From: Methylomonas sp.
GTDB lineage: Bacteria; Pseudomonadota; Gammaproteobacteria; Methylococcales; Methylomonadaceae
Assembly: GCA_026989395.1 (NCBI GenBank)
Contig: JALSJK010000135.1
Span: 1-51,898, forward strand
Reading direction: 5' to 3'
DNA length: 51,898 nt
Numbering within the stretch: position 1 is the stretch's first letter; each line of letters opens with the position of its first letter. The notes beneath the pieces are model-generated. The model was not told where the DNA came from and made no database searches. It saw only the letters and a list, made by a program, of their open reading frames with translations. The translations under genes and the position numbers were made by a program. Of the stretch, positions 36,027-51,898 are shown in pieces.

Positions 36027-36326
36027 TTAACCCGCATTAGCATAGCTTTTTACGGCATTTTTACCTTGCGTTACCTTTTTTAATTCCTGGGCCAAGCGAT
36101 CACGTTCCTGACGAACTTCATTTTGTATTTGCTGATCTTTACTCAACACCTGACGAACAGCATCAGCTAAATTTTCATCTTTTAACAGAGAATCAACAAA
36201 GTATTTCTTAATTAAACCATCCCGGGTTTTTTCGAGAGTAAATAAATCATCCCACTGCTCTTCTTTTGCACTGTTTAACATTTGATCCGTCAATTCCAAT
36301 ATCTGATTAAAGGTTTCCTGATTCAC
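36027..36326 (-). CDS. fliT: FliT-like flagellar chaperone
   Basis: A protein of 99 residues, almost all helical and highly charged, with no membrane segment. LTDQMLNSAKEEQWDDLFTLEKTRDGLIKKYF resembles the FliT heptad region that contains W-(D/E)-x-L-x-x-L-E-x-x-R-x. Family role: cytosolic chaperone for the FliD cap and regulator of flagellar genes. Sequence alone is weakly diagnostic; the call rests on size plus position 4 bases after fliS in the fliD-fliS-fliT order. Its stop lies 4 bases from that of the convergent membrane protein gene. Confidence 0.68.
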   Translation of the reverse strand: MNQETFNQILELTDQMLNSAKEEQWDDLFTLEKTRDGLIKKYFVDSLLKDENLADAVRQVLSKDQQIQNEVRQERDRLAQELKKVTQGKNAVKSYANAG

Positions 36327-36330
36327 TTAA

Positions 36331-36741
36331 TTATCCCATTTTTTGGCGATATTTATACTCTTCAGGAATAGCATCCCATCCTTGCTTGACTTCAGCCATC
36401 AAAGACTGAACTTCCGATAGTATGGCAACATCATTATTAGAATTTGCTTCAATTAAACGACGATTCATATAATCATATAACTCATTCAAATTTCGCGCAA
36501 TTTCATCTCCTTTTTCCATGTCCAAACAACTTCTCAAGCCATTGACAATTCCTATTGCTTTACTAATATATTTACTTTTTTCAGGTAGATCACCTCTTTC
36601 AATATGCCCTTTGGCATAAGCCACTCTTTCCATAAAACCATCCATTAACATCTGAATAATCCGATGTGGAGAAGCTTCGATTGCTTCTGAAGCAACGGCA
36701 TGTTTACTATACGATTCGATTGCACTGCTTAAAGCTACCAT
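36331..36741 (-). CDS. fliS: Flagellar export chaperone FliS
   Basis: A protein of 136 residues, four-helix type. YSKHAVASEAIEASPHRIIQMLMDGFMERVAYAKGHIERGDLPEKSKYISKAI is the classical FliS block (x-S-P-x-x-L-I/V-x-M-L-x-D-G), and RNLNELYDYMNRRLIEAN the C-terminal one. FliS holds unpolymerised flagellin in the cytosol before export. It lies 17 bases downstream of fliD. Confidence 0.94.
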   Translation of the reverse strand: MVALSSAIESYSKHAVASEAIEASPHRIIQMLMDGFMERVAYAKGHIERGDLPEKSKYISKAIGIVNGLRSCLDMEKGDEIARNLNELYDYMNRRLIEANSNNDVAILSEVQSLMAEVKQGWDAIPEEYKYRQKMG

Positions 36742-36758: not shown

Positions 36759-38096
36759 TTATTTTTTACCGATATTGCCGATTAAAGAAAGCTGCTGGGT
36801 TAAATAAGATCCTGTTGAATTCATTTGGGCAACAAATGAATCCATCGCAGCAAATTGTTTTCTTAGCCTCCTTTCAGTGCTTTCCAATCTTGCTTCCATT
36901 TGAATTTTTCTATCACTAATACGATCAAGCCTTTTTTTCAAGCCATCTTCCCGTCCATCGATCAAACCATCAGACTCTAATATTGATTTTGCAACGGATT
37001 CCAACCGCGATGCAAAACCCTCATCTTTTACCGAAAACAAGTTTACGACCGATGAAAAATCTGCATTCATCTGTTTGGTAAACAGACCACTATCCAGTTT
37101 CATTTGACCTTCTTTATCAACTGCCAAGCCTACTTCTGACAAAAAATTGAAACTCGAATCAGTAATAGAGTTTCCAGAATTCAGTACGCTCAACATACGT
37201 GATTCAATACTGCTTAATGTACTATCAGCTTCAAGCTGCCCTTGCCTCTGGTTTTTTATTTCGTCTTTTAATGCATTAAAAGCATCGGCAAACGCTTGAA
37301 CATTTTCTTTAATCGCTTCATCATCTCGATTAATATCAATAACAACTGATCCCGGTTTTTTAATGTCCAAAGTTACCCCGTCAATCAAATCACTTACCGA
37401 ATTGGAAGAGCGGGTGACAGTAAAGTTATTCTCAAACAACATGACTGCATCCAGATCAGCGGCTTCAAATGTACTACTGCCGTCACGATCTTCATTAATT
37501 GTGTTCATTGCAAACGGGGAATTGTTTAATTGAACAAAGTTTTTGCTGCCGGTTTCATTTCCTGTTAAAAGCAACCGATATCCTTGATCATCATGTAAAA
37601 TTGAAGCAGTGACCCCTTTATTATCAGTAGCTTTGTTAATTTCATCCCTGATTTCCTGCAAGGTCTTGCCATCGACAGCAACATCAAAAGAATTATCGCC
37701 GACCTGTATGGTCATTGGAGAAGCAGAATTAAACCTGGTTGAATCTGAATCAATCTGAGCTTCAGAAGCAAGTTTGTGATTTTCGGCGATACGTTTTACT
37801 TCAACAGAAAAAACACCTTTCGCAGCATCTTTAGATGCAGTGATACCTAATATGTCTTCATCAGTTGAATTAGCCGCATAAATTCTGAATTTATCGGCCG
37901 TCCCCAAATTCGCCATCGCTGTCTGAAAATCAGCAACTTTACTTTTTAACTGTCCATATGCGCTGATTTGATTATTAATGGTTGATTCTTTTCTATCCAG
38001 TTGTCTGATTGGCTGACGTTCCAGTTCCATTAACTTGGAAACGATACCATTAATATCTAGCCCAGAACCAATACCCGGTGCTTGTATGCCAGCCAT
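36759..38096 (-). CDS. fliD: Flagellar filament cap protein FliD
   Basis: A protein of 445 residues (family range about 440-480). The N-terminus GIGSGLDINGIVSKLMELERQPI is the FliD_N signature, with a coiled-coil after it; the middle contains the variable outer domain; the C-terminal LRKQFAAMDSFVAQMNSTGSYLTQQLS is the FliD_C coiled-coil end. FliD caps the filament and assists flagellin folding outside the cell. It follows flaG by 21 bases. Confidence 0.95.
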   Translation of the reverse strand: MAGIQAPGIGSGLDINGIVSKLMELERQPIRQLDRKESTINNQISAYGQLKSKVADFQTAMANLGTADKFRIYAANSTDEDILGITASKDAAKGVFSVEVKRIAENHKLASEAQIDSDSTRFNSASPMTIQVGDNSFDVAVDGKTLQEIRDEINKATDNKGVTASILHDDQGYRLLLTGNETGSKNFVQLNNSPFAMNTINEDRDGSSTFEAADLDAVMLFENNFTVTRSSNSVSDLIDGVTLDIKKPGSVVIDINRDDEAIKENVQAFADAFNALKDEIKNQRQGQLEADSTLSSIESRMLSVLNSGNSITDSSFNFLSEVGLAVDKEGQMKLDSGLFTKQMNADFSSVVNLFSVKDEGFASRLESVAKSILESDGLIDGREDGLKKRLDRISDRKIQMEARLESTERRLRKQFAAMDSFVAQMNSTGSYLTQQLSLIGNIGKK

Positions 38097-38117: not shown

Positions 38118-38585
38118 TTAAGCCTGCTCTTGCAGTAACATGCCTGAAAAGTTTTCCAATGATTCAGCAATCTTTAACACCTCTTCAGACGGTATTTGTC
38201 TGATGACTTTATCGGTTTCAGAATCAATTACTTTGACCACAGTCCTATCCGTTCCTTCATCAACACTAAATTGAATTTCACGATTAATTTTTTGACTATA
38301 GTCATTTAATTGGGCTATTTTTTCAGTTAATTGATTTTTATTTTCTGCTTCTTCTTCCCTTGCTTCCAAAGGTGTTGAAGCCAGTTTTTTTTCTTCAGCA
38401 AGTTTATCTTTAACCTTGTTAAGACCTTCATTACTCAGTTTAGAATCTGAAATCGATTCTTTGACTAGGTTTTTTGGCCCCATACCGGGTTGACTTGCAA
38501 CCCGATCAGGATTAAATCGTTGTTGAATCTTTACCGGCGAAGCAGCTTGTGTACCTGTTATATCACCCGCCATTATATTCACCAT
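38118..38585 (-). CDS. flaG: FlaG family protein
   Basis: A protein of 155 residues. The first about 90 residues are Lys/Glu-rich and low in complexity; the FlaG core is C-terminal: LNDYSQKINREIQFSVDEGTDRTVVKVIDSETDKVIRQIPSEEVLKIAE. FlaG affects filament length in several bacteria. Position between a flagellin gene and fliD is standard for polar-flagellum loci (fliC-flaG-fliD-fliS-fliT). Confidence 0.92.
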   Translation of the reverse strand: MVNIMAGDITGTQAASPVKIQQRFNPDRVASQPGMGPKNLVKESISDSKLSNEGLNKVKDKLAEEKKLASTPLEAREEEAENKNQLTEKIAQLNDYSQKINREIQFSVDEGTDRTVVKVIDSETDKVIRQIPSEEVLKIAESLENFSGMLLQEQA

Positions 38586-38634: not shown

Positions 38635-39480
38635 TTAACCCAACAATGACAAGGCTGCCTGTGGTAACTGATTCGCTTGAGCAACAATCGAAGTACCAGC
38701 CTGAGACAGAATTTGTGCTCTAGTCAGTTTCGATGTTTCTGCGGCAAAATCTGCATCCTGAATTCGACTTCTTCCTGCTGCAAGATTTTCAGAATAATTC
38801 TGCAAGTTGGAAATCACGGCATCAAATCTATTTTGTACCGCCCCGTAGGTTGATCTTGTGGAAGCAAGAGCTTCAATAGCAGTATCCAGCTTAGCAATTG
38901 CCGCAGAAGCATTTGCCGCATCATCGACATCTACAATTCCCGTTGCGGCAAGATCTGCAGAAAATCCTCCTCCTGCAGATAACGTTGTTTCCAGAGCCAC
39001 CCCAGTCACGGTGATTTGGTTATTAGCTTGTCCTTTGGCCCCCACCTGAAAAGTCAGATTATTTCCTCCACTAAGAACAAATTTTCCGTTATACTCAGTC
39101 GTTGTCACTATTCTGGAGATTTCCTGAGTTAACTGATCGACCTCTAATTGTAAGCCTGCTCGGTTTTCAGTCGTGGCGTTAGCTGATTGAACCGCAATCT
39201 CACGAAGACGTTGCAAGTTATTGCCAATTTCAGACATTGCCCCTTCGGCCGTTTGGGCTAAGGATATGCCATCTGCTGCATTTCGAACTGCCTGGTTCAA
39301 TCCCCGAATATCGGAAGTCATTAGTTCTGCCGAGAAAAGACCAGCCGCATCATCTTTTGCACTATTAATACGCAAACCTGAAGACAAACGTTGCATTGAG
39401 GTGGAAAGATCCATTTGCGATTTTCCCAGATTTCTTTGTGCATTTAGGGATGCGATATTCGAATTTACAATTAAAGCCAT
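38635..39480 (-). CDS. fliC: Flagellin 1 (sigma-28-type promoter)
   Basis: A protein of 281 residues with both conserved flagellin ends: ALIVNSNIASLNAQRNLGKSQMDLSTSMQRLSSGLRINSAKDDAAGL at the start, and the D0 segment ADFAAETSKLTRAQILSQAGTSIVAQANQ at the end. The central outer domain is very short, so the filament has little D2/D3. It is a close paralogue of the neighbouring flagellin at 39659. AGGAG stands 7 bases before ATG 39480, and a sigma-28-type promoter lies at 39545-39571. Surface Ser/Thr in the short central part could be glycosylated by the linked transferases (inference). Confidence 0.96.
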   Translation of the reverse strand: MALIVNSNIASLNAQRNLGKSQMDLSTSMQRLSSGLRINSAKDDAAGLFSAELMTSDIRGLNQAVRNAADGISLAQTAEGAMSEIGNNLQRLREIAVQSANATTENRAGLQLEVDQLTQEISRIVTTTEYNGKFVLSGGNNLTFQVGAKGQANNQITVTGVALETTLSAGGGFSADLAATGIVDVDDAANASAAIAKLDTAIEALASTRSTYGAVQNRFDAVISNLQNYSENLAAGRSRIQDADFAAETSKLTRAQILSQAGTSIVAQANQLPQAALSLLG

Positions 39481-39658: not shown

Positions 39659-40504
39659 TTACTGAAGTAATGACAAAGCCCCTTGTGGTATCTGATTTGC
39701 CTGTGCCAAAATCGAGGTACCCGCCTGCTGCATAATTTGTGCTCGGGTCAATTTTGCTGTTTCCTGGGCAAAATCAGCATCCATAATTCGGCTTCGTGCC
39801 GCTGATAAATTCTCGGAATAATTCTGTAGATTTGATATCACCGCCTCAAAACGATTTTGTACGGCACCATAGGTTGCTCGGGTTTCAGCAATTTTTGCAA
39901 TTGCAGTATCCAGGTTATCCAAGACACCAAAAGCATTAGCGGAGGTTGTAATATCTACCGTTCCAGTAGCACTTAAATCAGCACTGTAGCCACCTGATAC
40001 ACCAATAATGTCTTGGATGGCAGTTCCTGAAACAGTGACTTGATTGGTTGCCTTGCCATCTGCACCAACTTGAAATGTTAATGTATTACCAGCGCTAAGT
40101 ACAAACTTGCCATTGAATTCTGTAGTTTGAATAATTCTTGAAATTTCCTGTGTCAACTGATCGACTTCCTTCTGTAACCCAGATCGGTTTTCTGTTGTAT
40201 CATTAGCAGCCTGAACTGCAACTTCCCTAATTCGTTGAATATTATTGGCTATTTCTGCCAAGGCTCCTTCTGCAGTTTGAGCCATGGATATTCCGTCTGC
40301 GGCATTTCGTATCGCCTGATTTAGCCCTCTGATGTCAGAAGTCATTAGCTCACTGGAATACAGGCCCGATGCATCATCTTTAGCACTATTGACTCGCAAC
40401 CCGGAAGATAATCGCTGCATAGCAATATTCAAGTCACCCTGAGATTTGCCTAAATTTCTTTGCGCATTTAAGGATGCCATGTTGGTATTGACAATTAACG
40501 CCAT
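39659..40504 (-). CDS. fliC: Flagellin 2 (sigma-54-type promoter)
   Basis: A protein of 281 residues, the same length as flagellin 1 and nearly identical at both ends: ALIVNTNMASLNAQRNLGKSQGDLNIAMQRLSSGLRVNSAKDDASGL and the C-terminal SRIMDADFAQETAKLTRAQIMQQAGTSILAQANQIPQGALSLLQ. Differences concentrate in the central surface region. GAGGAAA precedes ATG 40504, and a sigma-54-type site lies at 40563-40579. It is separate from the sigma-28-type control of its paralogue, which suggests an early or minor flagellin, as known for multi-flagellin polar flagella; the subunit role is inference. Confidence 0.96.
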   Translation of the reverse strand: MALIVNTNMASLNAQRNLGKSQGDLNIAMQRLSSGLRVNSAKDDASGLYSSELMTSDIRGLNQAIRNAADGISMAQTAEGALAEIANNIQRIREVAVQAANDTTENRSGLQKEVDQLTQEISRIIQTTEFNGKFVLSAGNTLTFQVGADGKATNQVTVSGTAIQDIIGVSGGYSADLSATGTVDITTSANAFGVLDNLDTAIAKIAETRATYGAVQNRFEAVISNLQNYSENLSAARSRIMDADFAQETAKLTRAQIMQQAGTSILAQANQIPQGALSLLQ

Positions 40505-40678: not shown

Positions 40679-43600
40679 CTACTTTTCTGGTGATTTGATT
40701 CCTGGACTTAACGCATCAAACCATTGCTCAAGCTTATCTTCAAGCAGGTAATTTTTGACGACCCATTGACGAAGCATGTTTCCCTGGCTAGATAATAATT
40801 CCTGGTTGTCAATAGCTTGACGAATGGCAGAAAGCCATGATTGGGTAGTATTTTCAACCCGGGTTACAGGTGCGTTCTGATAGGGAAAAATATCAGAGCA
40901 AATAACAGGCCAGCCCAAAATACCATATTCCAACAAACGTAAATTACTTTTTGCCTCATTGAAACGGTTATCTTCCAATGGCGCGATTGCCAAATCCAGA
41001 TTTAAACTTGCTAAAACTTTTGGATAATCAGAAATATTGACCGGCTCATGAAATTCTTTAATATAGGGTTTGATTTCGTCGGGGCACATTCCCATAAAAA
41101 TCCAGTCGACTTCGCCGGCAGTTTGTTTGACTACATCAATAATGATTTCCAGATCTCCCTGGTGTTGCAAAGCTCCCGCCCAACCAACCCTCAATTTATT
41201 ACTTTGACGTCTTTTAGATTCAAGCTCAAGCCAAGCATTCTTTTCCAGTGAATTCGGTACAATGATGACATCACTTATCATATCCTGACAAAATTCAGCC
41301 AATGGCTTAGTTGAAACAACCGCTCTGTCACAAAAAGACAATGCTTTTCTTACCCTTGATTTTGCGTCCCTGAAATTTCGTTTCATGGTCTTATAAGCGG
41401 CACTTTTTTCGGGTATTTGATTAACCAGGTCGTCAATCATGTAAACAATAAATATTTCAGGAAGTAATTGCTTACATTGCTGCAAAAGTTCCAGTTGCTG
41501 ATCGCTTAACACCGAATGCATGACTAACACATCAGGTTTTAACCGGGCTATTTCAGTTACTGAAAAAGTCTTTTTCTCTGTCCCTGAAAGTCGTACATAT
41601 TCACATTGGGCAAGCCCCACTTTTCGTAAGTTTCTAAAAGGCTGAATTACCCTATAGTCCCCTGCTCCACCATCAAGTGGAACGCCTAAGATTCGCAATC
41701 GATCATGAAAATTTACATCCCAATTACTTACTAATGAAGAAGCGACACTAAAATCACGTTTTGTTAAATTTAGATGACGATTAAAGGCCGGATCATAACT
41801 AATAATATTTAGCCATTTTTTAAATAATGCATCCTGTTCATTTTTAAAACGTAAAATATTTTGTTCAGATTGAGCTGAACGTAATTGTGTGATACTGCCA
41901 TAATGAATCAAAGTGGAAAATGGAGTCCATACGATAAGATATCCTGCACTTCTAACTTTCAGACAAAAATCAATATCATTATTTGATATTGAAAAATGGT
42001 TTTCGTCCATCCCTCCAACCGAATGAAAAATCTTCGTTGAAACTAGTAAGCATGCTCCGGTTACAGCACTATAATTTTGAACTAACTGTGCACGCCCCAT
42101 ATACCCAGGTTCCTTAATATTAAGTAAACCAGCAAAAGGATGGTCGGCAACGGAAGTCATTCCTAAAATAATACCTGCATGTTGTAAAATTCCAGTTTCA
42201 GGAAAAACCAACCTTGACCCAACAATGCCCACATCATCACGCATTGCAAGATTCATCATTCTATCAAGCCATTCTTTATGGAGCACTTCTGTATCATTAT
42301 TCAGTAGTAACAAATAATCGCCATTGGCTTGTTTGGCTGCCATATTACAAATAGCCGAAAAATCGAAATCATATGGGTATTCAATCACCTTTATTTGATC
42401 ATCATATTTTTCCTTTAATTCAGAATAAAAACCGAAAACATCTGGGTCACTGCTTTGATTATCAACAATAATAATTTCATAGTCTGGGTAATCAGTCTTA
42501 CTTAAAACTGATTCAATACAAGGAGCCAAAAATTCTAGTTTGTCCTTGGTTGGGATGATTATGGAAACTTTTGGTTTCGATAGGTGATGGTAATCAACTC
42601 TGAAACTATTGCTAAAGTAACCTGGGATAATAGAAGCATTAATTGAGTTTCTTTGCAGATGCCGATTGATGGTGTTTTGTAGATCGACCTCCAGAATTGT
42701 CCGTTTTGAATATATTGATTTATGGAATAAAACTTCTGCTATATGACCTATTGCCTGTTCTCCATGTAGATCAAATACCTTAAATACAGCATCGTAAAAC
42801 TCGGCATTAGGAACACTTTCAAAACCACCCAATTCCAATAAACACTTTTTTTCAATGAGACCAAAATTACCCACATAAGATGTTGATCTCAACAAATCCA
42901 AATTAAAATCAGGTTTAAATTTGGGATTTAACCATTTGTTATTTTCTTCAATTTCATCTTCATCGGTATAGATCAATTTCCATTCAGGCTCAAGATTGAT
43001 ATAATCACCAAACAACAACATTGCATGGTAAGGTAACCTAGTACCAGCTTCAATCAAACAAACCCAGTCTGAATCAACTTGTTTTATTGTCTTGTTTAAT
43101 AAATCATAAGGCGATTCCTCTCCGGCAAAGCGAACCCAACTCAATTGTTCCTGCTCTGAAAATATAGGGTCAGGCTCTGGCCCGTCAGCAATAATGGTTA
43201 ATCGCCAATTTTTATATAGTTGCGCTGCAAATGAATCAATGGTATCAGCCAACAATGCCTGCTCATCGGGATACAAAAACATGATGAAGTGAAAAACTGG
43301 TTGAGTTTTCCAGGACACCGACATCCTTTCTGCAAATAATTGCCCATCAATTTCCAGTAAATCATGGGCTTTTACCCAGTTTTGATATTCTCGGTTGTAT
43401 TTGAATTGTTCAACAGACCAAATGGCTTGCAAATAATTTTCGTCAGTTTCGTTAAAATCATACTTTTCACGCATAACTGAAATCATTTCATCAAGACTTC
43501 CATAAGTCGTGTTACAAAGAGCGTGCTCATTATCTTCAATTTGTCCTACAAGAAATTCAGCCATTGAAACCAAGAATTGCTGTTTATATAGCTTATCAAG

Positions 43601-46600
43601 TGAATTTTGTGCTGAAATAATTTGTCTGGCTATTGTGGGCAAACTGATCTTCGTCATTTTATGAATAACCAACGCCTGATCCAGTAAATCATCAGACGAC
43701 CAAGAATCAGTCAGTAAAACGGGTAACTGATACCTTTTATTATACTTAAATCTTATTCGTCTAATTTCATCAGTTGCTACCTGTGAGTTTCCTGACAAAG
43801 ATTCGGTAGTATTCCAGAACAAGCCGGTTACAACAGGAATATGTCTCAAATCATATTGTTCCCCGATTCTGATCCAGAAATCCTGGTCTCCAATTGCCTG
43901 AAACTGTTCATCAAAATAACCAACAGTATCATGGACTGATTTTCTCCACATAGGGTTTGGACCAACCAGGCACTTTTCCTTCAACTCCTCAAAACTGTAA
44001 TCTGGCCATTTCATCATGCCTGATAACGTATGGTTTTCAAATGTTTGATGGGGAATCTGAGTCATGTAGCTATCGCCATAAACCAGCATGACGCCAGGAG
44101 AATCATATAATGCTTTTAACAGATTTTCACAAGCTTCCTTACTTAATCGGTCATTGGTACTCATTGGCATGATAAATTCACCGGAAGCCGCCTGAATAGC
44201 AATGTTCCATGCAGCATAGATACCTATTCTTTCCCTTGTCCGAATATATTTGATATTAGAAAATTGTTGCTGATAAGACTTGACAATCGATTTTTCATTC
44301 TCTGGTGAATTGGCGTCAACAATAATAATTTCCATTTGTGAAAAAATCGTTTGACTAACCAAATCATCAAGACATTCTGTCATAAATGCTTCAGATGCAT
44401 AAGTTGAGACAATTACAGAAACTATCGGATCTGTCTGATTGCTTGGATAGTTTTCCTCAAGGTTATCATTGAGTAGATCTTGCTTGTTTTCGGTATCGGT
44501 AAACGAAAAGTGCTGTTGATCAAGATTCGTAAATAATTTGGGAAGCTGATCTGCTTCGCTTGCAATGGTCGAAGTAATTTCATTGATATTGGCAATTGCT
44601 GAAGAATTTTCAGGATCCAGTGTTAATGCTTTTGAAGTTGCCGCTAATCCCAGGGTTCGCCGGTTGCTTTCCCAGGCAGCTACACCCAGATTGTTAAGAT
44701 ATAGAACATCTTCAGGATTTTCCTTGGTCAAAGTCTCCCAGGTTTTCAATGATTCGTTAACATAATCTTGACCAAGACTATACTGGAACTCGGCTTTGAG
44801 GTTTTTTAACTCTGAATGGTTGGCATTTTCCTTCAACAAACCGTCGAGAGCAAGGATTGCAGTCCGTTTTTGCCCAGATTGATAGAGATTGGCAATTTCT
44901 GAAATTTCTTTTTCTAGGTTATTAAATATCTGATTAGATACATTCTCTTGTATTGGTTTCTGGCTGGTTAATTGGGATAAGAAACGTTTGTTAATAAAAA
45001 GAGCATCGCCATGAACCCCGGTATTCAACATATCCCTAAAACCAATAAACTCAAAATCATCTGATAAAAGTGCTTTGATATCAGCAAGTAACCTAGCCCC
45101 TTGATACATCTCTATCAAACTAACCTCTGTATATATAATCTTGACCTTACTGAGTTGTTCGTTACTTAAGCCCGATAAAACTTTGTATTCAGCTCCCTGA
45201 ACATCAATATACAACAAATCAGGAATAACATTATCGTGCTCCTGAATAAATTGATGTAGAGTAATTTGTTGAACCTGGATCTGATCTGTGAAATCAACAG
45301 AGGGAAATATTCTTTTATGTTCCGCTAAAGGCAACAAAGAACTCGATTGGAAATTATTAGCAATGTTGAAGCTTGTCTGGCCCATTTCATCAGATACCGC
45401 AAAAGGATAAATTTGCACCCTGGTATCACAGGCCAGTTTTTGTCTCAACATTTCTTCAATTTGTGGTACTGGTTCAAACAAAAATAACTTTTTCAAATTA
45501 ATAAAGGTTTTGTTAAACCAGTCTTGTTCTTGAAATAAATGGCAACCAACAAAAAAAACAGTTTTAATTACTGAAGCAATGTGTTTGTTTTCAAGAAAAT
45601 CTTCCAGACTCTGCTCAGGTGCTAATATCCAATTGCTGGCTTCAATATTTTCTGTACTTTCCGGTTGTTTGTTCAGACAAAATCCCCATTGAGAACTCAG
45701 TTGCTCAACATTAAAATTTGACAGTTCCTGTTGTTTTGGGTGATCCCCGTTATAAATAAGAAAACTATGTTCGATCAGGCTTACTTTATTATCAAGACCA
45801 AACTGGAATGAAGGCAAGGTAGTTGTTACCCTTGTCATCATATCCCTGAGGGTTTTGCAATATGGTAAATATATTTGCTTAATTAAGTACTGATTTAAAG
45901 GGTAATGATTATGGACCAAGGGAACAAAAATATTATTGTTGACCATTGCGAATGCACTGTAATGAAAAAACACTACTGGATTTTGATCGACGGTCAATTG
46001 CTTAAGGGTATTCGTTTCATATCGATACTGACCATAATTCCAGGGTGCAAGCCCAACACCAGGATTCTTTGCGATTCTTACACCTGAAAACTGCTCAGGC
46101 CAAGCATCGAGGTATTTTTGATCCCCCATTCGATCTTTTTCAAACTTCAGAAAACACCAATCGATACATTTTTCCCGCCACCAGCGTAAAACCTTAAAAG
46201 CATTGCTGTCACGCCTGAAGCCAAGCAGACCGACATTAAACTTGCCACAACTTTCCTCCAGGTGCTTAAGTTCAGGAGAATAATTATGACCATGAATAAA
46301 TACCGAAGCTGCTTCTGCCTCTTGAAAAATGGCATCAGTTGAAGAAAAGAAGAATAAATCTGCATCAAGGTAAGTCAAAAAATCAATCTCAGGATTATCC
46401 TCCAAAATTCTTAAGATAATCGTTGGTGTTGCAGTCCAGTAATACTCAACAAGAGTTCTGCCTTTTCGACTGGACAAAAGCGCTGTGTCTCTTTTCTCAA
46501 TACGGTGAAATGGAATAACAACAACTTGTTCAAATTTTATCTCTTCAAGGAGTATCCGTGAAATCTCATCCATACACACACAAAATATTACAAAATCTTT

Positions 46601-46687
46601 TTTTTCATTTCTTTTAAGGGAATCGATCAGTGCTAAGGCTCGCACCAGATAAGCTTTGTCAAAATAGGTACAATAGAATCGTTTCAT
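40679..46687 (-). CDS. Giant multidomain glycosyltransferase/FkbM methyltransferase, probably flagellin-modifying
   Basis: From ATG 46687, with AGGAA just upstream, the protein has about 2002 residues; an in-frame ATG at 46723 lacks such a site. Approximate domains: 1-280 a GT8-like transferase (FLTYLDADLFFF, DxD near 107); 370-565 an FkbM-type methyltransferase (FLFEPVPQ, YIDVQGAEYKVLSG); 590-710 TPR-like helices (LNNLGVAAWESN); 755-990 a GT2 (VIVSTYASEAFM, MSTNDRLS); 1130-1360 a second GT2 (IYTDEDEI); 1370-1620 a third GT2 (SIIIPTKDK, LLLNNDTEV); 1660-2000 a GT4-like domain (RVGWAGALQHQGD, AKSNLRLLEYG). No signal or membrane segment, so cytosolic. It lies directly upstream of the flagellin genes, 92 bases after another modification gene. 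Flagellin glycosylation is inferred from context. Confidence 0.85.
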   Translation of the reverse strand: MKRFYCTYFDKAYLVRALALIDSLKRNEKKDFVIFCVCMDEISRILLEEIKFEQVVVIPFHRIEKRDTALLSSRKGRTLVEYYWTATPTIILRILEDNPEIDFLTYLDADLFFFSSTDAIFQEAEAASVFIHGHNYSPELKHLEESCGKFNVGLLGFRRDSNAFKVLRWWREKCIDWCFLKFEKDRMGDQKYLDAWPEQFSGVRIAKNPGVGLAPWNYGQYRYETNTLKQLTVDQNPVVFFHYSAFAMVNNNIFVPLVHNHYPLNQYLIKQIYLPYCKTLRDMMTRVTTTLPSFQFGLDNKVSLIEHSFLIYNGDHPKQQELSNFNVEQLSSQWGFCLNKQPESTENIEASNWILAPEQSLEDFLENKHIASVIKTVFFVGCHLFQEQDWFNKTFINLKKLFLFEPVPQIEEMLRQKLACDTRVQIYPFAVSDEMGQTSFNIANNFQSSSLLPLAEHKRIFPSVDFTDQIQVQQITLHQFIQEHDNVIPDLLYIDVQGAEYKVLSGLSNEQLSKVKIIYTEVSLIEMYQGARLLADIKALLSDDFEFIGFRDMLNTGVHGDALFINKRFLSQLTSQKPIQENVSNQIFNNLEKEISEIANLYQSGQKRTAILALDGLLKENANHSELKNLKAEFQYSLGQDYVNESLKTWETLTKENPEDVLYLNNLGVAAWESNRRTLGLAATSKALTLDPENSSAIANINEITSTIASEADQLPKLFTNLDQQHFSFTDTENKQDLLNDNLEENYPSNQTDPIVSVIVSTYASEAFMTECLDDLVSQTIFSQMEIIIVDANSPENEKSIVKSYQQQFSNIKYIRTRERIGIYAAWNIAIQAASGEFIMPMSTNDRLSKEACENLLKALYDSPGVMLVYGDSYMTQIPHQTFENHTLSGMMKWPDYSFEELKEKCLVGPNPMWRKSVHDTVGYFDEQFQAIGDQDFWIRIGEQYDLRHIPVVTGLFWNTTESLSGNSQVATDEIRRIRFKYNKRYQLPVLLTDSWSSDDLLDQALVIHKMTKISLPTIARQIISAQNSLDKLYKQQFLVSMAEFLVGQIEDNEHALCNTTYGSLDEMISVMREKYDFNETDENYLQAIWSVEQFKYNREYQNWVKAHDLLEIDGQLFAERMSVSWKTQPVFHFIMFLYPDEQALLADTIDSFAAQLYKNWRLTIIADGPEPDPIFSEQEQLSWVRFAGEESPYDLLNKTIKQVDSDWVCLIEAGTRLPYHAMLLFGDYINLEPEWKLIYTDEDEIEENNKWLNPKFKPDFNLDLLRSTSYVGNFGLIEKKCLLELGGFESVPNAEFYDAVFKVFDLHGEQAIGHIAEVLFHKSIYSKRTILEVDLQNTINRHLQRNSINASIIPGYFSNSFRVDYHHLSKPKVSIIIPTKDKLEFLAPCIESVLSKTDYPDYEIIIVDNQSSDPDVFGFYSELKEKYDDQIKVIEYPYDFDFSAICNMAAKQANGDYLLLLNNDTEVLHKEWLDRMMNLAMRDDVGIVGSRLVFPETGILQHAGIILGMTSVADHPFAGLLNIKEPGYMGRAQLVQNYSAVTGACLLVSTKIFHSVGGMDENHFSISNNDIDFCLKVRSAGYLIVWTPFSTLIHYGSITQLRSAQSEQNILRFKNEQDALFKKWLNIISYDPAFNRHLNLTKRDFSVASSLVSNWDVNFHDRLRILGVPLDGGAGDYRVIQPFRNLRKVGLAQCEYVRLSGTEKKTFSVTEIARLKPDVLVMHSVLSDQQLELLQQCKQLLPEIFIVYMIDDLVNQIPEKSAAYKTMKRNFRDAKSRVRKALSFCDRAVVSTKPLAEFCQDMISDVIIVPNSLEKNAWLELESKRRQSNKLRVGWAGALQHQGDLEIIIDVVKQTAGEVDWIFMGMCPDEIKPYIKEFHEPVNISDYPKVLASLNLDLAIAPLEDNRFNEAKSNLRLLEYGILGWPVICSDIFPYQNAPVTRVENTTQSWLSAIRQAIDNQELLSSQGNMLRQWVVKNYLLEDKLEQWFDALSPGIKSPEK

Positions 46688-46779
46688 AACATTTCCTGAG
46701 CTGGGAGTCTTTTTGTAATCCAAAAATGTAATTTAGTGTATTTTGTCGTCATTATGGAATTTGAATTTATTCGTCCATC

Positions 46780-49254
46780 TTATTTGGATGTTCTTTTAAA
46801 TACATAAGTTACATCATATTCATCACTCATTTCATTGACTGCAATTTCATAACATCCGATCAGTTCAAAACCCAGATTTATCACAGCTAGAACAATCTCA
46901 TTTTCATTAAATCTGATTTCAAAAGTATCAATACCATAAGCAGTTTTATTGTAAAAACGAGTCTCTCTTTGTCTTGAAACGGGGGTCCGATGCAACACCA
47001 CAAATTTATCAGCAATTCGGGTTGTTTCTATAAGATGTGAAAAATATTGTTTAACATGCAGTAACACACAAGAAGAAATAACAATATCAAAATGACGGTC
47101 GACAAATGGCGTATTTGCACCATCTGCATTGCAAAACTTAGCTTTCGGATAATAGTTTTTTGCCATATCCAGCAAAGGTTTTGAAAAATCAATACCTGTA
47201 TAATCAATTTCCAAACCAAGCAGATACTCAAGAATTTCATAATAATAGCCGCTGGCACAACCGATCTCGGCAATTTTGCAATGATTACCGGCGATTGCTT
47301 TCAGGCTTTCAGAAAGAACCCGGTAATGAAATGGAATATTGTTTTCGTACAACCCTTTTAGTTCCCGCTGAATCAAAGCTCTTTGTCTGATTGGTATCAT
47401 GTCACTTTTCCACGCCAGTTCCTGGCTTTCAGTGATCTCGGAAATTGAAGCATCTGAATAATTGCTGGAAATAGCCTGATTATTGATAGTCAATGGTTGT
47501 TCAAACCATTTATATCTTAAATGCCTGTCCAGTAGCTCTGCTGTTTTGATTAATCTTGCTTGATAATTATGATCCCTTAAAGTTCTTTGTTGGCCTCTTG
47601 CTGCAATTTGAGCGGCCTGTTCCGGGTGCGTCAAGAAAAAATGAATCAGCGCGATACATTCGTCAGTAGATCTATAAACCACAATTTCCTTGCCAATTTC
47701 GAACAGTTCGTCAAGATTATCTTTATAATCAGTGATCAATAAAGTCCCACTTCCAGTCGCTTCAAATAATCGCATATTGTTTGCATAATTTTCCGCAACA
47801 TCAATATGCCGGTTGATAGTTATTTTGGAGTTTTGCAACACATTAAACATATCTTTCCCCCACACTTCACCATGATGTTTTTCTTTAATAGGCGAATCCG
47901 GTGGAAGAGTCTCCATCCCGTAGCCCCAAAATTCTATAGGAGTATTCAAGGCAAGTTGTTCAAGTAATTTTGTTCCTGTGGTATGGGCAATAGAAATACC
48001 ACCAACAAAACTTACATCGTGTTCTCGTGATTGCCAGCCATTTTTTCCCTGTAATTCCTCACTAAATGCCAAAGACTGGTAATAGGCTGTGATACCCTGA
48101 CTGCGGAACCGCTCTACAAAATGAGGAAATGATGAAATAACAATATCAATTGTTTGTAAATCTGCGCTTGGTGGAATCGGTGAAGCGATTTGACCAACAA
48201 TTAATCGAGTATAAACTTTGATCGCTCTAAGTATTTCTGGTGTTGCATAGTTCAAATCCTGAAAATAAACAACATCTGGCCGTAATTGTTTTATTTGTTC
48301 AATTAAAATATCCAGCAGATTATATTGGTGACAACCATTTTCTTTTGCCCATGCTAATTGCAGTGGCTCGCAGTTTATTATCGAGTCTTCTGCATCCCAT
48401 CCTGCATTCTGGATGCCTTTAGAATAAAAATCACTATCTCCAAATTTTTCTAACAGTAATGATTGCAATTGCTTTCGATAAGTTTTGTTATCAAGTTCCG
48501 GATTTTGTTGATAGTGTTTATGAAGAAAACCTGAATAATATGTGTTCAGAAACAAACAAACAGGCTTTTTATTTAAATGAATACTGTGGCTTTCTTGTCT
48601 AGCGACAGAAAAAGAAGTTTCTATCAAAATTGAAGCAGGTAATTGTTGCCGCAATTTATTTAATAATTTCTTGGCAAAAATCTTTGACTTACACATAAAT
48701 AAAGTAGAAAGATATCCTTCAGAGTATTCTTCGGGATTTGTAATTCGAACTGTAAATGCTTGATCAGGTATTCCCGGCGTATACTCCTTCCGTTGGGCAT
48801 CATGCAGGATCATGATTCCATTGTCGTCCAAAATATTCCAACCGGTTCTCATACACTCAACTCGAGCTCGACCATCAACAATCACAATATTAAAAGGCGG
48901 TAAATTAGATTTGGCTGGATAAGTAATATAATTCTCAAACTGCTTATACGTTCCATCATCTTTACCTTCATTGTAATCCTGATCATTTTGAATATGTTTG
49001 ACTAAAACTCCTTGAGTAGAAAATTTTTCTAGCATCTGGCCTACTTCCTCATACCATTCATGATTGTGTTCCAAGGCCAGCCAAGTACTTTGAGGTTGAA
49101 CCAACCCGGAAAAAAATATGGTACTAGCGCCACTTCCCCACTCAAGGACTCGAATAGGAAAATCAAACAATTCAATACTTTCCATAATTGCTCTGATTTC
49201 ATAAGTGTTCATGAAAGGAACAACTTGAAATCGGTGGCTATATGTTTCGTTCAT
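46780..49254 (-). CDS. Three-domain methyltransferase-glycosyltransferase-methyltransferase
   Basis: A protein of 824 residues. Residues 1-200 are a SAM-methyltransferase-like domain (RVLEWGSGASTIFFSG, FNIVIVDGRARVECM, ILHDAQRKEY). About 228-590 is a CgeB-type glycosyltransferase (VCLFLNTYYSGF, DVSFVGGISIAHTTG, INRHIDVAENYANNMRLFEATGSGTLLITD, typical of Glyco_trans_1_2). About 640-824 is a second methyltransferase (KIAEIGCASGYYYEILEYLLG, IDFSKPLLDMAKNYYP, DIVISSCVLLHVKQYF). AGGAAG stands 6 bases before ATG 49254 and a strong sigma-54-type site lies at 49380-49395. Gene order and promoter type link it with the flagellin genes; the sugar and acceptor are unknown. Confidence 0.82.
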   Translation of the reverse strand: MNETYSHRFQVVPFMNTYEIRAIMESIELFDFPIRVLEWGSGASTIFFSGLVQPQSTWLALEHNHEWYEEVGQMLEKFSTQGVLVKHIQNDQDYNEGKDDGTYKQFENYITYPAKSNLPPFNIVIVDGRARVECMRTGWNILDDNGIMILHDAQRKEYTPGIPDQAFTVRITNPEEYSEGYLSTLFMCKSKIFAKKLLNKLRQQLPASILIETSFSVARQESHSIHLNKKPVCLFLNTYYSGFLHKHYQQNPELDNKTYRKQLQSLLLEKFGDSDFYSKGIQNAGWDAEDSIINCEPLQLAWAKENGCHQYNLLDILIEQIKQLRPDVVYFQDLNYATPEILRAIKVYTRLIVGQIASPIPPSADLQTIDIVISSFPHFVERFRSQGITAYYQSLAFSEELQGKNGWQSREHDVSFVGGISIAHTTGTKLLEQLALNTPIEFWGYGMETLPPDSPIKEKHHGEVWGKDMFNVLQNSKITINRHIDVAENYANNMRLFEATGSGTLLITDYKDNLDELFEIGKEIVVYRSTDECIALIHFFLTHPEQAAQIAARGQQRTLRDHNYQARLIKTAELLDRHLRYKWFEQPLTINNQAISSNYSDASISEITESQELAWKSDMIPIRQRALIQRELKGLYENNIPFHYRVLSESLKAIAGNHCKIAEIGCASGYYYEILEYLLGLEIDYTGIDFSKPLLDMAKNYYPKAKFCNADGANTPFVDRHFDIVISSCVLLHVKQYFSHLIETTRIADKFVVLHRTPVSRQRETRFYNKTAYGIDTFEIRFNENEIVLAVINLGFELIGCYEIAVNEMSDEYDVTYVFKRTSK

Positions 49255-49494: not shown

Positions 49495-50148
49495 TTAATC
49501 ATCCTGCTTTTGGGCTTTGTCTTCTATCTCAACCCCAGCTTCAGCAAAAGCATCACCCCAATCCGGTTCTTCAGAAAACTCATCTTCCTCAGCCTCATTT
49601 TTCTCAGATTTTTCGGTAGAATCATCAGCTGCTGGCGTTATATCATTTTTTGTATCGTTGATTTCTTCTAGCTCGGAGTCTGAAATTTCTATCTGATTAT
49701 CTTCTAGGTTGATTGTTTGCTCTGAAGAAGGATCGTTTTGCGACTCAGAAACAGATTGTTTTTCAACTGGCTTATCTTCAGTGGATGACATATTCAAATT
49801 CTCGCCAATCAGCTGTATATATTCATCCAGACAATCGCAACAGTATTGATAAAAATTTGTGACAGGTTGTTGATCCATCAGAATTTCCAGAAATTTATGG
49901 GTTAATTGTTTTTCAGCAGCTACAAAATTTTCTACCTTTTCCAACACAACTTGTTCAGACATTTCTATTTGTGTTGTCAAAATATTGACTATTTGTTTTT
50001 GCCTGGCAGTTTCGTTTGCTTCAATTTCTGTTAACAAACGTTCCATTTCAGTTTTTTTCCGCTTTTTGTCTCGGCCATTGAGAAACAACACAAAACCTAA
50101 CAGTAAAATCAGAACAATCACTAAATTAATCAGAATAATTAGCATCAT
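49495..50148 (-). CDS. Membrane-anchored protein with acidic tail, unknown function
   Basis: A protein of 217 residues. Residues 2-23 (MLIILINLVIVLILLLGFVLFL) form one membrane helix, followed by a basic patch (GRDKKRKK) that places the rest in the cytosol, a coiled-coil from about 33 to 90, a short CCDC cluster near 104-107, and a disordered acidic tail of about 100 residues ending DWGDAFAEAGVEIED. It overlaps the upstream gene by 4 bases (ATGA). It resembles that neighbour in architecture (helix, basic patch, coiled-coil), so the two may be distant paralogues. I do not recognise the family. Confidence 0.72.
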   Translation of the reverse strand: MMLIILINLVIVLILLLGFVLFLNGRDKKRKKTEMERLLTEIEANETARQKQIVNILTTQIEMSEQVVLEKVENFVAAEKQLTHKFLEILMDQQPVTNFYQYCCDCLDEYIQLIGENLNMSSTEDKPVEKQSVSESQNDPSSEQTINLEDNQIEISDSELEEINDTKNDITPAADDSTEKSEKNEAEEDEFSEEPDWGDAFAEAGVEIEDKAQKQDD

Positions 50149-50774
50149 GATGTTTTTACCTCATTTATCTTTTTAATCTGTTGCATACTTTCATAAAAAA
50201 GCCCCAACATTTTTTTGCTACTGTTTTGTAATTCAAGTTCTGTTCGCCGGCCTGCAAATATTTGAGTATATTCAACACTAAGTTCATTCATGGTTCGCAT
50301 GGCTGTGTCCATTTGTTGCGATTGTTTCTGAAGCTCTTTTTTTAGAAGATCGATTTCTTTTTGTGCCTGCTTTAAAGCATCATCGTCAACCACTGGAGCG
50401 ATATTGCTGAGTATTTTGCAATAAGGCTCTGAGATGCTCTGTACTTGTTTATCAATTTTTTTTAGCAACTCTGTATCGCGATTAAAAAACATCCGTAATA
50501 GGTACTGGTAGAATGTTTTTTCAGTACCGGCTATTTCTTCAAGAAAATCATTACGCTGTTCATCTTGCAAATTGGTAGATTCCGTCAAAATTTTGTCCAG
50601 TTGTTCATTCCTGTTGGTTTTATTTTTTTTCAGTTTTTTGACTAAAGACTGTGCTGCATTTTGAGTAGCGGCCTTTTTCCTATGAGACAGAAAAGGGACA
50701 ATTAAAACCAGTAAAATCAAAATCAACAAGGATTCAAGTAAAATGATGACAACAACAGGGCTTAATTCAATCAT
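50145..50774 (-). CDS. Membrane-anchored coiled-coil protein, unknown function
   Basis: A protein of 209 residues. Residues 6-28 (PVVVIILLESLLILILLVLIVPFL) form one membrane helix, then a basic stretch (SHRKKAATQNAAQSLVKKLKKNKTNR) indicates a cytosolic body. A coiled-coil lies at about 125-165 (LKQAQKEIDLLKKELQKQSQQMD) with a conserved-looking end LFYESMQQIKKINEV. Overlaps of 4 bases at both ends (ATGA) bind it into one operon with the genes at 49495 and 50771. No enzymatic motif was seen. Confidence 0.72.
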   Translation of the reverse strand: MIELSPVVVIILLESLLILILLVLIVPFLSHRKKAATQNAAQSLVKKLKKNKTNRNEQLDKILTESTNLQDEQRNDFLEEIAGTEKTFYQYLLRMFFNRDTELLKKIDKQVQSISEPYCKILSNIAPVVDDDALKQAQKEIDLLKKELQKQSQQMDTAMRTMNELSVEYTQIFAGRRTELELQNSSKKMLGLFYESMQQIKKINEVKTS

Positions 50775-51898
50775 TCCAGTCTTTCCAATAATTTTTCTTG
50801 CTGCTTTAGGGTGCTTTTTTTCTGCCAGCGATATATGAGAAAACCAAGTCCAACAAGAATAATATTCCCTCCGGCAACTATCAGGCTAATCATCATCCAA
50901 TGGGTTGTCTCCTGAACTTCCTCTTCTACCTCATCTTCCTGGCCTGCTCCATTTTCAGTTTCTGTAACTTCATTGTTTACCTCTGCTTGGTTTGATTTCG
51001 GTTGAGTTTTTTTCGCTTTTACAGTGTTATCGCCAAACAAGCTTGAATCAATAAAAACGGGTTTAATATTGGGCATGACAGGATTACCTTCAAGTGTTTT
51101 AACCGTCACAGAAAAATTAACCAAAAGACGTTTGCCTGCTTTCGGTTCCTTTAATTTCAGTTGCCACTGCCCTTGTTGTTCTTCAATATCGATAGTCCTT
51201 TCCTGTTTTGGTGGCTCTGTGATAAAAGCTTGAATACTCATGAAAGAAGTATCTAGTATGTTTTTGTCTGGAATGAGTTGCAGGGTTACGCTGTGGTTTT
51301 TTTTATCGACTTTTGTGACTACTTTTATCGGTGAATCAATAACTTCAAATGATCGTTTTATTTGCCTTTTAAAAGTATTGCCATCGACATCCACTACTAT
51401 CTCGTATTTTCCCGAAACCCGGGATTCTTTTAACTGACGACTAAAAAATCCTGCTTTTTCTTGATTTGGCAATAACGGCCATTGCTTAGTTTGTCCATCT
51501 GGTATTTTTTGCTGCAACTGAATATCGAGCATGTTCAGAAAATTAGCCCGTGTGATTAGCTGGCCTTGGTCAGTCAAAAAAACTTGAATATCTAACGTCT
51601 CATCTTTCCCGACTGAATTGGCCACCTCTTGCATTTCAAGTTTTAGATCAGTAACAATCATAATCTGATTATCCGGATCTGTTTCAGCCACTATTCTCCA
51701 TTGTCCAGGCTCTGGCTTTTTTACTGTCACTAGATCATAATTTTTTTCATGCAGCCAATTTACATTGTCTATTGCCTTCTGATAAAGAAGCTCCTGTTCA
51801 TCAGGAGTGATAATTCGAGTGTCTTCTGCACCTGGTTTTCTAAAAACCAATATCGAAAACTCTTTAATCTGACTGTCAATCATAAATTTGTTGCCGAT
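50771..51898 (-). CDS. TIGR03503-like membrane protein, N-terminus cut by window edge
   Basis: The frame is open to the right edge (376 codons visible); the ATG at 51883 is probably internal, because the reading frame continues upstream without a stop. Visible parts: NWLHEKNYDLVTVKKPEPGQWRI, a beta-rich W-x-V-x-x-P-x-P-G-x-W-x-(V/I) segment as found after von Willebrand A domains in such proteins; several beta-sandwich-like repeats; a Glu/Thr-rich linker; and one C-terminal membrane helix (MMISLIVAGGNIILVGLGFLIYRW) followed by a basic tail. So the body would be periplasmic. It precedes two membrane coiled-coil genes with 4-base overlaps. The TIGR03503 resemblance is from memory of the family. 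Confidence 0.68.
   Translation of the reverse strand: MGNKFMIDSQIKEFSILVFRKPGAEDTRIITPDEQELLYQKAIDNVNWLHEKNYDLVTVKKPEPGQWRIVAETDPDNQIMIVTDLKLEMQEVANSVGKDETLDIQVFLTDQGQLITRANFLNMLDIQLQQKIPDGQTKQWPLLPNQEKAGFFSRQLKESRVSGKYEIVVDVDGNTFKRQIKRSFEVIDSPIKVVTKVDKKNHSVTLQLIPDKNILDTSFMSIQAFITEPPKQERTIDIEEQQGQWQLKLKEPKAGKRLLVNFSVTVKTLEGNPVMPNIKPVFIDSSLFGDNTVKAKKTQPKSNQAEVNNEVTETENGAGQEDEVEEEVQETTHWMMISLIVAGGNIILVGLGFLIYRWQKKSTLKQQEKLLERLE

Follow-up and report, generated by a model that had tools for sequence, protein, structure and literature searches.

Two very large genes lie side by side, directly upstream of the flagellin genes, in the stretch of Methylomonas DNA analysed here (contig JALSJK010000135.1, 51,898 nt, referred to below as the window). 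The pair very probably encodes a cytoplasmic O-glycosylation machine for the two adjacent flagellins, of the type represented by FgtA (PA1091) of Pseudomonas aeruginosa. On the sequence evidence, flagellin glycosylation has a high probability of being the right function. Flagellin was already the target proposed in a preliminary description of the locus, and that proposal is well supported, because the core of the larger protein is linked to fliC in a conserved manner and is homologous to FgtA, whose mutant, according to the excerpted report, makes unglycosylated flagellin (PMC11833859).

The gene pair and its surroundings

The features considered are listed in Table 1. The two giant reading frames that were first described, of about 2,826 residues together, are present on the minus strand (2002 plus 824 residues), the larger being counted from an in-frame ATG 12 codons after the listed TTG, where the relative in genome G001 also begins. 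The larger gene is separated by 174 bp from fliC, on the same strand, and the two giant genes are 56 bp apart. A second genome of the genus (the sister genome) has kept both proteins, at 77% and 80% identity, with gene order unchanged, and the gene pair is therefore not the product of chance. The flagellin block downstream consists, according to Pfam, of fliC-fliC-flaG-fliD-fliS, as described, while the fliT that was said to close it is just a reading frame of 99 aa at 36027–36326.

Table 1. Positions in the window of the large gene pair, the modules of the larger protein and the flagellar genes downstream.
Feature	Position	Strand	Evidence or remark
Large modular flagellin glycosyltransferase (candidate)	40679–46723	-	Intact ORF; start at TTG (2014 aa) or at the in-frame ATG, 46685–46687 (2002 aa)
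GT8-like module, LDAD motif, residues 13–310	45794–46687	-	PF01501, E 4.4e-4
FkbM methyltransferase module, residues 409–554 (Pfam stretch)	45062–45499	-	PF05050, E 1.2e-15; TIGR01444 (NCBIfam)
TPR-like helical stretch, residues 595–745	44489–44941	-	TPR_16, E 1.1e-6 scanned alone, 29.4 bits, below the cut-off of 32.7
GT2a module, about residues 764–1000	43724–44434	-	PF00535
Core domain GT2b, residues 1108–1350, YTDED motif	42674–43402	-	Alignment, model, motif count
Core domain GT2c, residues 1383–1650, NND and NDID motifs kept	41774–42577	-	Pfam, alignment, motif count, model
Core GT4-like GT-B domain, residues 1651–2014	40682–41773	-	Alignment, loci, fold
Partner protein, 824 aa	46780–49254	-	Class I methyltransferase, CgeB-type GT, class I methyltransferase; Pfam
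fliC1, flagellin, 281 aa, likely acceptor	39659–40504	-	PF00669/PF00700
fliC2, flagellin, 281 aa, likely acceptor	38635–39480	-	PF00669/PF00700
flaG	38118–38585	-	PF03646
fliD	36759–38096	-	PF02465/PF07195
fliS	36331–36741	-	PF02561

Upstream of the pair, at 49495–51883 on the minus strand, are three genes (370, 209 and 217 aa) of no clear family, all with an apparent membrane helix by eye and the first with a sub-threshold match to MG2. A scan for sigma-70 promoters found 31 sites where 36.4 were expected, and no promoter can be argued from it.

The modules of the large protein follow one another in the order GT8-like, FkbM, TPR, GT2a, GT2b, GT2c and GT4-like. The inventory first given for the pair (GT8-like, three GT2, GT4-like, CgeB-type, FkbM, two class I methyltransferases and TPR) was confirmed through Pfam, relatives and a structural model, several of the matches being sub-threshold. 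Two GT2 stretches and FkbM (PF05050) of the large protein exceed the Pfam cut-offs, and TPR_16 falls below. The match to GT8 (PF01501) appears solely when residues 13–310 are scanned alone, at 20.3 bits against a cut-off of 24.3. GT2b and the GT4-like domain have sub-threshold Pfam matches only and were recognised through relatives and the model. The first SAM-binding motif of FkbM methyltransferases is usually glycine-rich; here, just before the Pfam stretch (45524–45550, minus strand), it reads VGCHLFQEQ, an unusual form that is identical in the sister genome.

The GT8-like module has a 321-aa paralogue, 35% identical, elsewhere in the genome (G000:C29). It belongs to a polysaccharide-type cluster (L040) that also contains a 1482-aa GT4-like protein and rmlC.

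An AlphaFold2 model of residues 1098–2014, calculated from 16 sequences, has a mean pLDDT of 89.1 and a pTM of 0.85. Foldseek places tandem GT-A polymerases at the top of the matches to this model, with GT4-type enzymes among them. VIA-align gives Z scores of 22–26 for GT4-type GT-B chains, over about residues 575–915 of the model, and of 22–24 for polypeptide GalNAc-transferases, from about model residue 269 on, which corresponds to GT2c. A common fold, here a predicted one, by itself shows no function. Residues 13–760, modeled from two sequences, gave a mean pLDDT of 33.1 and no usable N-terminal model.

In the 824-aa protein, the CgeB-type domain (PF13524) and the C-terminal Methyltransf_11 are above the Pfam cut-off, and the N-terminal methyltransferase, scanned alone, gives a sub-threshold match to Methyltransf_24 (E = 8e-4). 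In a search of 61 genomes, the window's own and those of 60 relatives, a full-length relative of this protein was found only in the sister genome, at the same place, the other genomes providing shorter matches that cover single domains. The protein is tied to flagella by its position, with no link beyond that.

The conserved core and its linkage to flagellin

The last ~900 residues of the large protein (GT2b-GT2c-GT4) form a conserved core. Matches over about residues 1015–2010 were found in 8 of the 61 genomes (G000, G001, G043, G011, G058, G007, G033 and G034). All eight have a flagellin gene downstream in the same orientation, which is the direct neighbor in seven and about 3 kb distant in G058. 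Compared with those of the window, core domains from outside the genus show 32–56% identity, and the modules that precede them are far less alike or cannot be aligned.

A search of genome contigs with an alignment of the GT4 domain found 464 relatives, of which the best 80 were analysed, from Methylophaga, Zoogloea, Chromobacterium, Paludibacterium, Thauera, Azospira and Vogesella among others. Since these 80 are the nearest of the 464, more distant relatives could be less linked to flagellin. A flagellin-type gene (the fliC profile cannot reliably tell flagellin from FlgL) is present in 67 of the 80 loci. It starts within 500 bp downstream on the same strand in 55, of which 47 also carry flaG, fliD or fliS, at 0.5–2 kb in 4, and elsewhere in the locus in 8. 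The loci where no such gene was seen comprise 6 with less than 2.5 kb of downstream DNA and 7 with 2.5 kb or more. In the 55 closely linked loci the neighboring protein is unusually long in three cases (L073, L108, L112) and short in one (L052). The sample of loci and that of genomes overlap, L051, L058 and L124 being taken as contigs of G001, G043 and G033.

The GT4 domain also has four relatives on viral contigs, at 29–43% identity.

A class-wide sample gave a match with an E value of 1e-60 or better in 61 of 369 genomes, and the GT4-containing core was counted in 32 (G000 and G011 included). For the positions of flagellin in these genomes, strong matches were entered (not every copy in G292 and G277), and weaker ones, probably FlgL, were left out. 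Flagellin so counted lies within 1 kb downstream on the same strand in 22 of the 32, otherwise within 3 kb in 1, at 3–10 kb in 3 and beyond 10 kb in 1. The remaining five have no flagellin on the contig of the core: G127, G292, G277 and G423, where it is found on other contigs, and G236, where none was found anywhere in the genome.

These counts bear on the explanation that the pair builds O-antigen, capsule or some other surface polysaccharide and that its proximity to flagellin is incidental. GT9, FkbM and TylF modules, which occur in this protein or its relatives, are common in polysaccharide loci. Moreover, the GT4 profile also matches, at about 25% identity, the 1482-aa protein in the non-flagellar cluster of the same genome, and the GT4 domain alone is therefore not exclusive to flagellin loci. 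The same explanation may draw on 12 loci (L028–L039) that have the tandem GT2b-GT2c without GT4, none of which carries flagellin, FliD, FlaG or FliS when all reading frames of at least 90 aa are considered (7 of the 12 are informative, since five of the genomes have no flagellin at all). The latter loci serve equally as a control, because their lack of filament genes indicates that it is the three-domain core, not the tandem GT2, that goes with flagellin. Against a polysaccharide stand the 55 loci with a flagellin-type gene within 500 bp, from beta- and gammaproteobacteria among others, the homology of the core to an FgtA-type gene, and the GT2 matches that the genome has on at least 10 other contigs. 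I regard incidental proximity as very unlikely.

The core can perhaps serve elsewhere. Of the seven loci that show no flagellin-type gene despite 2.5 kb or more of downstream DNA, three, from Thiotrichaceae, Parabeggiatoa and Thiomargarita (L096, L116, L122), encode the core with C-terminal extensions of about 240–300 residues, which suggests a possible non-flagellar use.

The link to experiment is provided by a tblastn match from a plasmid collection, to a P. aeruginosa megaplasmid record with a flagellar locus (L135, NZ_CP131792.1). Its genes run flgF-flgL, methyltransferase, HAD phosphatase, NTP transferase-domain gene, 1694-aa protein, B-type fliC, flaG, fliD and fliS, the 1694-aa protein being annotated "CDP-glycerol glycerophosphotransferase family protein". 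The record bears no PA tags; by order and content I take the island to be pa1088–pa1091 and the 1694-aa gene to be FgtA/PA1091. Residues 1109–2007 of the large protein align with residues 821–1693 of this FgtA-like protein at 34.8% identity over 910 columns (E = 9e-144).

The record itself, with its b-type flagellin island, is labelled an 847-kb conjugative plasmid of P. aeruginosa.

As excerpted, the study of PAO1 reports that the flagellin peptide of the pa1091 mutant is predominantly nonglycosylated, that mutants in pa1088–pa1090 retain a deoxyhexose only, and that it is hard to tell the glycosyltransferase activity of PA1091 from its phosphotransferase activity (PMC11833859); an excerpt of a second paper describes PA1091 as combining glycosyltransferase and phosphotransferase domains (PMC10714395). 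The natural reading of FgtA is that the core attaches the base sugar, to which the N-terminal module adds a cap, roles that the pa1088–pa1091 mutants do not separate. That the core primes is thus something I infer, the two activities of PA1091 being hard to dissect in PAO1.

A proposed mechanism and the variable N-terminal half

The core would recognise flagellin and set the first sugar on Ser or Thr of its short central region. To consider which domain might do so, motifs were counted in 81 cores: those of 75 loci out of the 80 (the five genes truncated at a contig end were dropped), FgtA, the window, G011, G058, G007 and G034. The Y-x-D-x-D motif of GT2b is intact in 78 of them. The last D of the NND triplet of GT2c is likewise kept in 78, missing in L069, L075 and FgtA, and conservation is lower for N-D-x-D, the other GT2c motif, which 42 have in that exact form. 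The window retains both GT2c motifs, whereas GT2c of FgtA is without the DxD-type motif. Since FgtA has one deoxyhexose to account for and a GT2c lacking the triplet, GT2b or GT4 is the likely primer. The core may also extend the first sugar, because GT2c keeps its DxD-type motif in the window. The N-terminal GT8-like, FkbM and GT2a modules, together with the separate 824-aa protein, would then add and methylate further residues.

The first sugar would most likely be a deoxyhexose, e.g., rhamnose from dTDP-rhamnose. The genome does have rmlC, inside the polysaccharide-type cluster L040, and it may serve another polysaccharide. Neither NeuB nor PF01973, the family that Maf proteins presumably match, gave any match in the genome (98.14% complete), which is evidence against a nonulosonic acid/Maf route; the control for the PF01973 search gave matches in four archaea only.

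Relatives differ greatly in what precedes the core. The N-terminal modules are GT1/TPR/FkbM/GT2 in L088, GT9 and a methyltransferase in L099, CgeB-type/TylF/GT1/TPR/GT2 in the 2974-aa protein of L102, and GT11/FkbM/methyltransferase/GT2 in L124, while the N-terminal parts in L106 and L083 have no Pfam match. N-terminal parts were scanned at an E value of 1e-5 for 52 of the 80 loci, after genes truncated at contig ends had been set aside together with many near relatives, for the most part from Zoogloea and Chromobacterium. In the matches, of which 25 of 28 families are listed, GT2 was found in 23 of the 52, FkbM in 3 and a CgeB-type model in 4. Each of the Pfam TPR models matches one or two of the 52, and TPR may be undercounted, because this threshold misses the counterpart, in the sister genome, of the weak TPR stretch in the window.

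Eleven hand-picked pairs of relatives were also compared. Two show no N-terminal match at an E value of 1e-3 (L105/L104, Zoogloea, with cores 73.6% identical, and L052/L057, Methylophaga, 50.8%). Four have the part beside the core in common and an extra N-terminal stretch in one partner, e.g., about 1000 residues between L118 and L127, both labelled C. haemolyticum. One of the remaining pairs is alike in part only and four are alike throughout. By these comparisons, N-terminal modules are gained or exchanged even within genera, and for this reason the base would be common to all while the cap would be particular to each species. Large size alone is not new, since the reading frames of 6 of the 80 relatives exceed that of the window.

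On another reading the core glycosylates flagellin, but the 824-aa partner and most of the modules ahead of the core have a different substrate or are in decay, leaving a glycan of one or two sugars. FgtA, with one deoxyhexose for three core domains and a GT2c without the DxD-type motif, fits such a case, as do the unusual first motif of FkbM and the weak GT8 match of the window. In the sister genome, however, the N-terminal modules are 76–86% identical, about as well kept as the core domains (71–83%), and the 824-aa protein at 80% is no different, so that a short glycan, while conceivable, seems unlikely.

The opposite extreme, close to the preliminary description, is a single-polypeptide assembly line that builds a methylated glycan of five or six sugars on FliS-bound flagellin, with the TPR stretch as docking site. 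The domain inventory would suit it. Docking through the TPR stretch is possible if FlmG of Caulobacter is taken as a parallel, since the TPR region of FlmG binds flagellin according to the excerpted paper (PMC7591256). However, a profile of the window's TPR stretch matches just 2 of the 80 relatives (L051, L088) and not FgtA, and in the Maf system, as excerpted, glycosylation precedes chaperone binding (PMC4065374). I consider an assembly line of this kind improbable. The equation of five glycosyltransferases with five sugars was rejected, because FgtA, with three core domains and one deoxyhexose, indicates that the number of sugars need not equal the number of domains.

Starting from the preferred reading, an FgtA-type machine for the two flagellins, a more general proposal may be put forward tentatively, with some doubt: that beta- and gammaproteobacteria have, in the FgtA-type core, a general platform for priming flagellin that takes interchangeable N-terminal modules, where one polypeptide (plus one partner here) builds the complete methylated oligosaccharide on flagellin without a lipid carrier, and where the glycan can be read from the order of modules. 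Independently of this proposal, the analysis ties many unnamed giant "glycosyltransferase" genes beside fliC to one enzyme with an experimental anchor, and divides them into a core that is constant and linked to flagellin and a capping part that varies. It predicts the same base sugar under different caps across relatives, and the modules provide a natural stock of parts for O-glycosylating proteins. In the open-licence literature searched, no description was found of such a core whose N-terminal modules vary between genera, which is no proof of novelty.

Comparison with known systems

By fold comparison, the core resembles chondroitin polymerase K4CP and heparosan synthase in having tandem GT-A domains in one chain. 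Those enzymes, unlike what is proposed here, are polysaccharide polymerases, and I know of no GT4 domain or flagellar linkage in either.

The remaining likenesses to systems other than FgtA are drawn by description, from excerpts of the papers cited. FlmG, like the large protein, combines TPR and a glycosyltransferase in one polypeptide (PMC7591256), the TPR match of the window being weak; it differs in its donor, pseudaminic acid, and its one GT-B domain, whereas NeuB was not found in the genome of the window. Enterobacterial flagellin islands also have GT2, FkbM and class I methyltransferases beside fliC, with methyltransferase domains in some of the glycosyltransferases, and contain one to three glycosyltransferases per island (PMC4875605), in contrast to the pair described here. 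P. syringae uses large glycosyltransferases for flagellin as well: fgt1 and fgt2 lie upstream of fliC, Fgt1 being said to transfer rhamnose to Ser, and VioT, of 1,173 aa, takes part in flagellin glycosylation (PMC3927599). Those are separate genes, and here there is one fused protein. One relative in the class-wide sample (G215:C16:124572–132489) has two core genes in tandem upstream of flagellin, an arrangement that recalls fgt1-fgt2.

FgtA and the large protein both have a GT2b-GT2c-GT4 core, homologous over its whole length, in a fused polypeptide encoded directly upstream of a fliC-flaG-fliD-fliS block, both have an extra N-terminal enzyme module, and both have a separate methyltransferase gene upstream. 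They differ in GT2c, where the DxD-type motif is kept here and missing in FgtA, and at the N-terminus, which in FgtA is annotated as CDP-glycerol glycerophosphotransferase-type and here is GT8-like, FkbM, TPR and GT2. No phosphotransferase module was matched by Pfam at an E value of 0.01 in a scan of the whole large protein, which is accordingly filed as a variant with a shared core and not as FgtA itself. What sets the pair apart is the N-terminal half, which varies among relatives, and the separate 824-aa partner. The suggestion that the pair is a new system was not borne out, since FgtA already exemplifies the core as well as a fused polypeptide next to fliC; the large protein belongs to the FgtA type, as an elaborate modular variant, and does not form a wholly new system.
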